A stretch of 25,179 nt of DNA from a virus: the IMG/VR virus record IMGVR_UViG_3300025322_000153, positions 1-25,179 of that record; one strand, written 5' to 3'. Positions 2,653 to 19,530 of this stretch are shown here, one piece after another (position 1 is the stretch's first letter; each line of letters starts with the position of its first letter). The translations under genes were made by a program, and so were the position numbers. The notes beneath the pieces are model-generated. The model did no database searches. It saw only the letters and a list, made by a program, of their open reading frames with translations, and had not been told where the DNA came from.

Positions 2653-3801
2653 CTACGAAAATGTAAGAGACACTTCGTTGTCGGTCCCGGTCTCGGCCGC
2701 CATGAACGGCGTCTCGTAGACCGTGATGCCGTCGCGATCGCCCTTGCCGACGCCGGTGTAACTGATCCCCGGCATCTGGATGCGATAGCGATTGCCGGCG
2801 GTCGTGCCGATCTGGCCGGTATCGAGCGCCATGGCATTGCCGGCCTTCCATTTGCCATGAAAATCGTGCGTCGCCACCAGCACCGCCTCGGGGTCGAACG
2901 ATCCGGTGAGCTTGCGCCCGATGATCTGCAATTCACCGAACCCGTCCGGAGAACTGATATCGGGCGGGGTGACCAGATTGAGACCCACGTCGAATGCGAG
3001 TTTCGAGATCACGGCGGCGTAGGAATCCACCGAAAACGGGACCGCGATCAGCGGCACGGGCACAATGGCGGAATAAGTCGGCGTGGCGAGCGCGGTGTCG
3101 ATCGGGCCGTTGTCGATCTCGAAAATGCTGGTGCTGTCGGGGGTCGTGGTCCAGGTCGTGACGGTGCAGGTTTTGGTCGCGCCGGTGTAGTCGGCGATCG
3201 ATTTCGACTGGCCGAGGCCGATGCCGGCGGTGATGCGCAGCGTACGGCCGTTGTAAACATCGTCGGTCGCGGAGAACGTGGACGGCAGCACGATCGTAGT
3301 GGACGTGGCCGAGACGGCGGTGCCGCGCATTTTGGTGTGGCCGGTGAAATTGAACGATGCCTTGCCAGGGGCGCCGGTCTCGCAATTGAACGTGACCTTG
3401 CCGCGCGCGCCGGTCAGGACGTGCAGCACACCATCCTGGTAGTAATGTAGCGTCAGACTCGCGTTGGCCCCAGAGGCCGGTGCATAGACAACCGATACAC
3501 CGGCATTGGTGGCCTCGGCGAAGCGGCAGCCGCGCAACAGTACGCCGAGCTCCGGCGGAACGTCGGCGGTGCCACTGCCTTTGATCTCAACCTCGAAACT
3601 GATCGCCTTGAGCGTGCCGCCGAATACGGGCTTCAGCGGCGCCATGCTCGACTTGATTGGGTTGCGCTCGTACATGCGCGCACCCTCGTGCGACCACGCG
3701 AGATTCTCCACCAGGATTGCGTTCGCGGCCCCGGTCAAGCCCGGGTCGATCCCGTAGGTCGTTTCAATCTTGGCGAGCAGGACTTCCCGGATTTTCAGCA
3801 T
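2653..3801 (-). CDS. Major tail protein (tail tube) with an inserted beta domain
   Basis: This is a 382-residue protein. The N terminus, MLKIREVLLAKIETTYGIDP, is typical of siphovirus tail tube subunits, which start by naming a metallo-free beta scaffold; an almost all-beta composition follows. Residues about 160-231 look like a separate module (ATDDVYNGRTLRITAG...ADYTGATKTCTV...TPDSTSIFEI). Modules with this pattern are common in phage fibre and baseplate proteins, so it is probably displayed on the outside of the tube. The tube fold resumes around 245 and ends VSLTFS. The ATG at 3801 follows GGAG eight bases upstream. The gene lies between the small hypothetical ORF/tail terminator and the chaperones, the canonical order. 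Tube identity is well supported; the inserted-domain call is inference from sequence texture. Confidence 0.8.
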   Translation of the reverse strand: MLKIREVLLAKIETTYGIDPGLTGAANAILVENLAWSHEGARMYERNPIKSSMAPLKPVFGGTLKAISFEVEIKGSGTADVPPELGVLLRGCRFAEATNAGVSVVYAPASGANASLTLHYYQDGVLHVLTGARGKVTFNCETGAPGKASFNFTGHTKMRGTAVSATSTTIVLPSTFSATDDVYNGRTLRITAGIGLGQSKSIADYTGATKTCTVTTWTTTPDSTSIFEIDNGPIDTALATPTYSAIVPVPLIAVPFSVDSYAAVISKLAFDVGLNLVTPPDISSPDGFGELQIIGRKLTGSFDPEAVLVATHDFHGKWKAGNAMALDTGQIGTTAGNRYRIQMPGISYTGVGKGDRDGITVYETPFMAAETGTDNEVSLTFS

Positions 3802-15383: not shown

Positions 15384-15408
15384 AAAAAACCCGGCACGCG
15401 GCCGGGTT
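15384..15408 (-). terminator. Intrinsic terminator between the tRNA-like gene and the cold-shock gene
   Basis: On the minus strand an 8-bp stem (15401-15408 with 15388-15395), loop of five, is followed by a run of U encoded by 15384-15389. It separates the tRNA-like gene from the late genes; the cold-shock ATG is 16 bases downstream. Confidence 0.85.
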
Positions 15409-15413
15409 ACGAA

Positions 15414-15488
15414 TGGAAGCGGGAGCTGGGGTCGAACCAGCGGCCTCTGCGGTATGAGCGCAGCGATCTACCTCTGATCTATCCCGCT
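15414..15488 (-). tRNA. tRNA-like gene, anticodon CAU (Met or Ile2 type)
   Basis: The 75-base minus-strand RNA folds as a complete cloverleaf. A 7-bp acceptor stem (AGCGGGA with TCCCGCT) is followed by T8-A9, a 4-bp D stem with loop AGAGGTA, base 26 G, and a 5-bp anticodon stem (CTGCG/CGCAG) with loop CTCATAC. The variable loop is five bases, and the 5-bp T stem (GCTGG/CCAGC) has loop TTCGACC. CCA is encoded at the 3' end. The anticodon is CAU, so elongator or initiator Met or lysidine-modified Ile are possible. The discriminator base is U, unlike the A usual for tRNA-Met, and the acceptor starts A-U. It may be an unusual phage tRNA or a decoy. Confidence 0.85.
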
Positions 15489-15570
15489 GAAACAAACGCC
15501 GCCCGCCTGACGCCATGACGTGTCGCTGAGACGATGGGTGTGGTGGCCGGGGGCGGCGGAAAATCGGCAA
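15489..15570. other. Gene-free spacer between tRNA-like gene and upstream terminator
   Basis: No ORF with a ribosome site, no second tRNA and no clear promoter is visible. An 8-base inverted pair (15497-15504 with 15551-15558) could form a long-range GC stem in the leader RNA. Confidence 0.4.
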
Positions 15571-15604
15571 TAAAAAACCCGGCCCTGAATCAGGCGGCCG
15601 GGTT
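15571..15604 (-). terminator. Intrinsic terminator upstream of the tRNA-like gene
   Basis: A 9-bp stem (15596-15604 with 15576-15584) closes a loop region with a small internal stem. It is followed on the minus strand by six U encoded by 15572-15577. Its stem shares the AACCCGGC sequence with the terminator on the other side of the tRNA-like gene, so the two look related. Confidence 0.85.
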
Positions 15605-15761
15605 CGGTCTGGATGCTGGCGATTTTCCCTTGAGGGATACTACGACCAGCTTGGTTAAGCATGATCGAAAAAGTGTACGGATGTCAATGCTTTTTTGTTC
15701 GCGTTATAATAGTTGACTGATTTTGTGTAGTAATTTCAGGAAATAGGTTGTCTAGTACTAG
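15605..15761. other. AT-rich gene-free region with promoter candidate and palindrome
   Basis: The stretch is more AT-rich than its surroundings. It contains a minus-strand TTGACA, a plus-strand TATAAT (15705-15710) without a matching -35, and a perfect 10-bp palindrome CTAGTACTAG (15752-15761) abutting the inverted-repeat element. No ORF is supported. Confidence 0.5.
15658..15687 (-). promoter_or_regulatory. Candidate late-region promoter (TTGACA box)
   Basis: The minus strand carries a perfect TTGACA (15687-15682). The best -10 is CATGCT at 18-bp spacing, only three of six matching. It would direct transcription through the upstream terminator and tRNA-like gene toward the late genes. A start here is plausible, but the weak -10 leaves it uncertain. 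Confidence 0.35.
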
Positions 15762-15889
15762 TTAGAGCGCATACAGAGCACTACGGTCGGACGGCATCGT
15801 CGGTCTGAGATTGTTCTCAACTTCTTCCCGCCAGTTCCCGAGTGCAGGCATTACTGCACATGCTCCGTAGTCCCTTGTATGCGCTCTAA
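15762..15889. repeat. Structured inverted-repeat element with three internal hairpins
   Basis: Two 25-base arms (15762-15786 and 15865-15889) are inverted repeats matching at 22 of 25 positions, starting TTAGAGCGCATACA. Between them are three perfect hairpins: GACG/CGTC around GCAT (15790-15801), TGAGA/TCTCA around TTGT (15806-15819), and GTGCAG/CTGCAC around GCATTA (15842-15859). On either strand this gives a closed multi-branched fold of 128 bases without an ORF. It may be a structured RNA or a small MITE-like element bounded by TA dinucleotides. Orientation and function cannot be decided. Confidence 0.65.
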
Positions 15890-15919
15890 TCCGGCGCCCA
15901 ACGCCGCTCTCTTCGGTCG

Positions 15920-16582
15920 TTATCCCCGTGGCATTTTTCTGAACAGTGCCCGATCAATCTCACTATATGCCACACGCAGCGTTTTTTTGAAAAAACTTTC
16001 CGATACCCGGAGCTGCCTCGCCTTCATCTGCTGCGTGCCGTTCCAGAAATATTCGCGGACTACCACGCGATTCATCCAAAACGTCTCATCGCGCTCGCGC
16101 CAGCCAGTAATGAGATTATCGAGAACCAGCGATTGCCAATCGCCAACGCCGGAACCAGGGCGCGTGCTGCGGATGCCGATCGGGTTCACCTTGAGATCGA
16201 TGATCCGCACGCTCCCGGCGCCCTTGCACCGATAGCAGTGATCGCCCGCGAATTTCTTACTGCCCTCGCAGATCGGGCACACGCGCGAGACCGCACGTTG
16301 CGTGGCCGTGAGTTTGAGCAGCAATCGCCCGGTGCCGTGGCACTGCGGGCACCACGGATCGTGCGCGTGCCCGGCCTGCATGTCCACGATCCAGCCCGGG
16401 CAGACATTCGAGCGTGCCCCCTGCATCAGCCGGCCGGTCATCGAGATCCCGCTGTTGCGGCTGCCACCGCACCACCGCGCCCAAGATTCGCATGCGCCTT
16501 TGACGTAGGGCAGATCGCGGATGCCGGCCTGATAGCCGGTGACGAAGTTCTGCCGCGGAAGTTTCATCATTCGCGTTTTCAT
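15920..16582 (-). CDS. Zinc-finger protein, candidate antitermination factor (lambda Q-like)
   Basis: This 220-residue protein's ATG overlaps the terminase stop (ATGA). Residues 78-120 carry CPQCHGTGR, CPICEGS and CYRCKGAG, a zinc-binding cluster; lambda Q has CRDCHGTGR and CGRCKGVG in the same relative arrangement. The C terminus (WMNRVVVREYFWNG, then KARQLRVSESFFKKTLRVAYS) resembles a DNA-binding helix-turn-helix. Lambda Q (207 residues) sits before pR' and tR', and here too a promoter-like box, terminators and late genes follow within about 550 bp. It could instead be another phage zinc-finger/HTH regulator or DnaJ-type protein. Motif and context support it; no alignment was possible. Confidence 0.55.
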   Translation of the reverse strand: MKTRMMKLPRQNFVTGYQAGIRDLPYVKGACESWARWCGGSRNSGISMTGRLMQGARSNVCPGWIVDMQAGHAHDPWCPQCHGTGRLLLKLTATQRAVSRVCPICEGSKKFAGDHCYRCKGAGSVRIIDLKVNPIGIRSTRPGSGVGDWQSLVLDNLITGWRERDETFWMNRVVVREYFWNGTQQMKARQLRVSESFFKKTLRVAYSEIDRALFRKMPRG

Positions 16583-19223: not shown

Positions 19224-19504
19224 ATTTTCATGTTCCAGATTTCGTTCTTTTCTGGTCTATCTCGTTGATCTTACTCAGTAAGGAAGGCCCATAGCACCCC
19301 TCCACTACAAAAAAAACGAGGTTTGAATTACTCGCGTTTATGATCGCGGGAAGGACCCGCGACGCGATTGCACAGAATAAGATCGCACCATTCAGGCGCG
19401 AGAGCCCGGCCGGAATCACCGGCAATGCGGGTAATCGCGGGGGATGTTTCAGCCCCTTATATATATATGTCATCCTTGCCATTCTTACGCGTTAGATGTA
19501 ACCA
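19224..19504. other. Intergenic region between replication and packaging genes; weak ORF inside
   Basis: It holds a hairpin (19344-19350 with 19356-19362), an eight-base A run (19309-19316) that would be U8 in minus-strand RNA behind a weak CGAG/CTCG stem, a TA-rich stretch (19458-19469), and one arm of an inverted repeat. A minus-strand ORF of 84 codons (19228-19482) starts MARMTYIYKGLKHPP but has no good ribosome site and an odd composition. I treat it as unlikely. A terminator with a weak stem at 19309-19334 is possible. Confidence 0.45.
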
Positions 19505-19530
19505 TTACCCGCCATTACCCGCATTGCCGG
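19419..19530. repeat. 17-bp perfect inverted repeat around the end of the replication ATPase gene
   Basis: CCGGCAATGCGGGTAAT at 19419-19435 is the exact reverse complement of 19514-19530, which encodes the GNAGN end of the ATPase gene. The arms are 78 bp apart, too far for a simple terminator. A short GGGTAATGGCGGGTAATGG-type direct duplication lies beside the right arm (19501-19520). Confidence 0.7.

Follow-up and report, generated by a model that had tools for sequence, protein, structure and literature searches.

Is the 128-bp structured element in the late-control region of a temperate phage an RNA of the phage's own making, or did it come from elsewhere? The question arises at positions 15762–15889 of the window, by which we mean the whole 25,179-nt stretch of viral DNA analysed (IMG/VR record IMGVR_UViG_3300025322_000153). 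The virus is represented by three assemblies, of which the window is one and a 42.6-kb record (L189–L191) another. An earlier note, made from the sequence alone, had placed the element between a Q-like gene and a tRNA-like gene and had offered two readings, a structured noncoding RNA of the late switch or a mobile MITE-like repeat with a TA target duplication of the IS630/Tc1 type.

The structural description held up in all but one detail. The arms, 15762–15786 and 15865–15889, are 25 nt long and 78 nt apart and match at 22/25 positions (88% complementary), with a terminal inverted repeat that is perfect over 14 bp and has TA at its ends; 10 Markov simulations of the window yielded no arm pair as good. 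Folded as RNA, the element reached −59.9 kcal/mol on the + strand (z = −5.2 against shuffled sequences) and −64.0 kcal/mol on the − strand (z = −6.0). The three small perfect hairpins that the earlier note had listed as separate structures (GACG-GCAT-CGTC, TGAGA-TTGT-TCTCA and GTGCAG-GCATTA-CTGCAC) are all present as sequence, but only the second and third, within a branched stem, appear in the predicted fold. The longest ORF spans 29 amino acids, in agreement with the claim that the element encodes no protein. Neither strand carries a GC-rich stem with a directly adjoining T run, as expected of something judged not to be an intrinsic terminator, and an Rfam search returned no match at the gathering score or at E ≤ 10, so the remark that no known RNA class is recognizable also stands. 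The element is identical in the two further assemblies of the virus, making three in all, which argues against a chimera; identical copies were the only ones found. A 38-nt part of it (15779–15816) resembles rpoC in frame at 82% identity in one genome (L193:1501–1538, E = 0.002), a similarity to this genome (G204) that we judged to be due to chance.

Only one other arm pair in the window is of comparable quality. This second long hairpin (19419–19530; 31-nt arms, 87%) lies between the end of a primase-like gene and terS, and has a homologue at L029:5432–5552 in which the pairing is kept while five pairs are altered on both sides. It may be a conserved structure close to the probable cos/packaging start, or an RNA, and is a stronger candidate for a genuinely structured element than the 128 bp at 15762–15889.

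The late genes of the virus all lie on the − strand, in the order terS, GpA-type terL, Q-like zinc-finger gene, element, late-promoter unit, tRNA-Met(CAT), cold-shock gene, and tail and portal genes. The Q-like gene matches the PHROG family 'anti-termination protein Q-like' weakly (E = 2e-4) and contains a DnaJ-type zinc finger that scores under the Pfam cut-off; the tRNA was confirmed as a real tRNA-Met(CAT), and the placement of the element between these two genes is thereby upheld. Searching 369 Gammaproteobacteria with a profile of the Q-like gene gave no match. Relatives of TerL led to two sister groups that share the gene, L184 (Q-like proteins 75–77% identical) and L025 (46–48%), in both of which it directly follows terL. 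A box reading GCTGGTCG, shortly past the −10 element and followed by a terminator, is conserved in all three (window 15570–15687, − strand; L184:5640–5760; L025:3401–3530 and 3530–3680), 3′ of the DnaJ-zinc-finger Q-like gene that itself comes directly after terL. The conserved promoter, GCTGGTCG box and terminator are candidates for the pR′/qut/tR′ unit of an unusual Q family. The tRNA-Met(CAT) (15388–15488, − strand) is followed by a second terminator; L184 lacks it and has the cold-shock gene directly after the terminators. On this comparison the region carries a second insertion, the moron-like tRNA.

What separates the window from its sisters is the distance between the Q stop codon and the late promoter. 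In L184 the promoter TTGACA overlaps the stop codon (GGGTATTGACAGCCGTACGG), and in L025 it begins within ~10 nt after it. Downstream, the GCTGGTCG box and terminator are kept in L184, in L025 and in the window, which alone has ~230 extra bases (about 15690–15919) in the gap. Since two relatives at different distances lack these bases, a gain in the window's lineage is the simplest reading, and the ~230 bp are, relative to these two, an insertion. The parts of the region are as follows.

15570–15687, − strand: late-promoter unit, with TTGACA at 15687–15682, GCTGGTCG box at 15650–15643 and terminator hairpin at ~15607–15570, aligned with its L184 and L025 counterparts.
15690–15740, + strand: left part of the insertion, AT-rich, which by position would be an intI–attI spacer; absent from L184.
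15741–15761, + strand: attI-like sequence; its last base is the G of the core G^TTAGAGC.
15762–15889, + strand: the reported element, probably an ORF-less cassette body; it starts at TTAGAGC, extends to the R″-like CTCTAAT (last base 15890), is bounded by core ends and folds on itself on either strand.
15884–15919, + strand: 5′ half of an attC (CTCTAATCCGGCGCCCAACGCCGCTCTCTTCGGTCG), truncated, the 3′ half (L′, R′) being missing.
15920–16582, − strand: Q-like zinc-finger gene, whose stop codon TAA (15922–15920) adjoins the truncated attC.

Read along the + strand, the order is thus AT-rich spacer, attI-like flank, G^TTAGAGC, 128-bp body, CTCTAAT, attC 5′ half and phage TTATCC (the Q stop). Comparison of the region with phages and plasmids by blastn gave chance-level matches only, and the left ~50 bp of the insertion have no convincing match. 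A promoter-like site, ATGTCA-18-TATAAT (15681–15710, + strand), identified by its match to the consensus, points into the putative cassette and then runs antisense to the Q-like gene.

The left boundary resembles the junction between an integron attachment site and its first cassette. In a DNA comparison with 369 Gammaproteobacterial genomes, of which 139 carry integron integrases, the sole match was to positions 15741–15772, which are identical at 28 of 32 bases to an attI/first-cassette boundary (L192/L195). That boundary lies directly upstream of an integron integrase (TIGR02249, E = 2.6e-143), and on its other side the integron, in genome G204, has a TIR-domain first cassette with a normal attC. 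When the score was anchored on G^TT, the best of the 247 other GTTR cores in the window reached 21, against 28/32 here, and the highest score among 20,000 permutations was 24. The G^TTRRRY cassette start beside attI is present as G^TTAGAGC at 15761/15762; its seventh core base is G and not Y, as it is in the matching G204 integron. The attI-like flank also shares an exact 18-mer with L245, which lies there in a terminase gene and was set aside as a chance match.

The right boundary came to light when the insertion was compared with the integron arrays of the integrase-bearing sample genomes. Positions 15886–15919 match the attC 5′ half of a Gammaproteobacterial family (L202) at 27 of 34 bases; elsewhere the window reached at most 21, and 1.82 million positions in other phage loci gave at most 24. 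A pattern search for this half found eight places in 6/369 genomes, and the reversed-pattern control none. On virus-labelled contigs, sites of the same attC family occur at full length in L246–L248 and interrupted in L249. After a 128-bp cassette a full attC would read CTGGACGCTGCGC...GTTRRRY. The complete attC end (R″, L″, L′, R′) was not found, its 3′ half being replaced by phage DNA, and R″ reads AAT in place of AAC. A tblastn search with IntI of the 42.6-kb record, L184 and L025 gave a best E value of 0.10, in the phage's own integrase-like region. As both a complete attC and an integrase were sought and not found, we class the element as an integron-derived remnant and not as a functional cassette or integron.

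How, then, do the arms arise? The core ends of integron cassettes (R′ at the start, R″ at the end) are complementary by nature, and the reported arms start with such ends, GTTAGAGC and GCTCTAAT. The first cassette of the G204 integron, starting GTTAGAGCGCAT and ending ATGCACTCTAAC, has arms of the same kind. End arms of 23 other cassettes match at no more than 15/25 positions, as against 22/25 here, which indicates that the body has a foldback of its own and that the core ends explain only the outer part of the arms. The element is not itself an attC, for which its polarity is reversed (GTTAG..CTAA); this polarity fits a cassette body between cores.

Both matches adjoin the ends of the element with the polarity attI–cassette–attC, which supports an integron order. 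Together, these results make it highly probable (roughly 0.88) that the element is the body of an ORF-less integron cassette, captured by a temperate phage along with an attI-like flank and half an attC. The structure is real, yet it is bacterial gene-capture DNA in a phage and not a new class of phage RNA. We suggest that an integron fragment, comprising attI-like DNA, one small ORF-less cassette and the first ~36 bp of its attC, was inserted into the stretch that separates the Q-like gene from the late promoter. Its source would be a chromosomal integron of the host, joined to the phage by illegitimate recombination during prophage residence. The cassette would now be immobile, a locked remnant, with outer arms that derive from its core ends and were presumably lengthened by the foldback of the body. 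Its present role is most likely that of passenger DNA, the Q gene, its stop and the late promoter having been left intact; at most, the element may give the Q-like mRNA, transcribed on the − strand, a stable hairpin in its 3′ part. A functional captured cassette seems unlikely: a stable folded RNA, or antisense transcription into the Q-like gene, starting from the promoter-like site at 15681–15710, would then tune the switch from lysogenic to late expression. If this were true, an integron cassette would have been domesticated as a phage regulatory RNA.

The proposal that the element is a structured noncoding RNA evolved by the phage for its late switch, transcribed on the − strand in the gap from Q-like gene to late promoter, fits the strong − strand fold and the late-control location, with neighbouring genes all transcribed on that strand. 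We nevertheless regard it as very unlikely, given that the two sister phages share the Q gene and the promoter unit yet lack the element, and that its flanks are integron DNA. A covariance model, the search by which the earlier note had proposed to look for compensatory changes, found no homologue in which pairing could be followed among 97 related phage and prophage loci, 25 genomes, 9 virus records and 53 integron/attC loci; a hit in G008 (E = 0.08) lies in coding sequence resembling hisA.

Of the mobile-element suggestion, the origin in mobile DNA survives and the kind does not. An IS630/Tc1-type MITE would account for the perfect terminal repeat ending in TA, but those ends are already accounted for by the integron core ends G^TTAGAG and CTCTAAT. 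The multiple genomic copies that such a repeat should have left, and that the earlier note had named as a check, did not appear: exact arms at 85–115 bp spacing occur in 0/84,980 genomes and, among viral contigs, in this virus only. The empty site in L184 lacks a stretch longer than the element, so a TA duplication at the element ends cannot be read from it. On these grounds a MITE is extremely improbable. One might also hold that the insertion is unrelated decayed DNA and its likeness to an integron fortuitous, as the matches are short and chance produced a 28-nt match in the unrelated terminase of L245 and another in rpoC. This is scarcely credible for two independent matches that each lie far beyond the null, fall exactly at both ends of the element and follow integron order and polarity, the more so as the reversed-pattern control for the attC half was empty.

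An integron cassette captured in this way suggests that short integron scraps travel in phages as ORF-less pieces with half an attC, which detectors based on attC or integrase would be expected to miss. It also suggests that such insertions are tolerated in the control region that lies between antiterminator gene and late promoter. For the annotation of noncoding RNAs there is a caution, in that a perfect-looking structured 'ncRNA' may turn out to be a cassette, its arms formed by recombination core ends.

Compared with known systems, the surroundings of the element recall the late unit of lambda-type phages (Q, pR′ and tR′), in which a promoter and an early terminator lie downstream of an antiterminator-like gene; the element was inserted into this layout and does not belong to it. 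A noncoding RNA on an integron cassette has a parallel in sRNA-Xcc1 (RF02221), which Xanthomonas carries on integron cassettes (PMC12444791). Tried as the element's family because it is an integron-borne sRNA, RF02221 had no match in the window and none in G204. Cassettes that lack an ORF or a gene are known, some of them promoter-active on either strand (PMC6557892; PMC11014356; reviewed in PMC8876359). The element resembles these in having no ORF and in being bounded by G^TTRRRY and the start of an attC, and differs from them in that it resides in a phage, measures only 128 bp, is strongly self-complementary and has a truncated attC. Integron components in phages have been described by Qi et al. 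(2023), whose survey of 10,705 phage genomes yielded 3 integrons, 1 In0 and 17 CALINs (PMC9892861). In that set, as in the window, temperate phages carry cassettes and recombination sites of integrons, fragments of sedentary chromosomal integrons among them. Detectors of attC and integrase had found those complete integrons, the In0 and the attC clusters (CALINs), whereas the element is a single cassette lacking an ORF, with attI-like DNA on one side and half an attC on the other; tools that need a complete attC would probably overlook it. Integron pieces in phages, like cassettes without an ORF, had thus been reported before.
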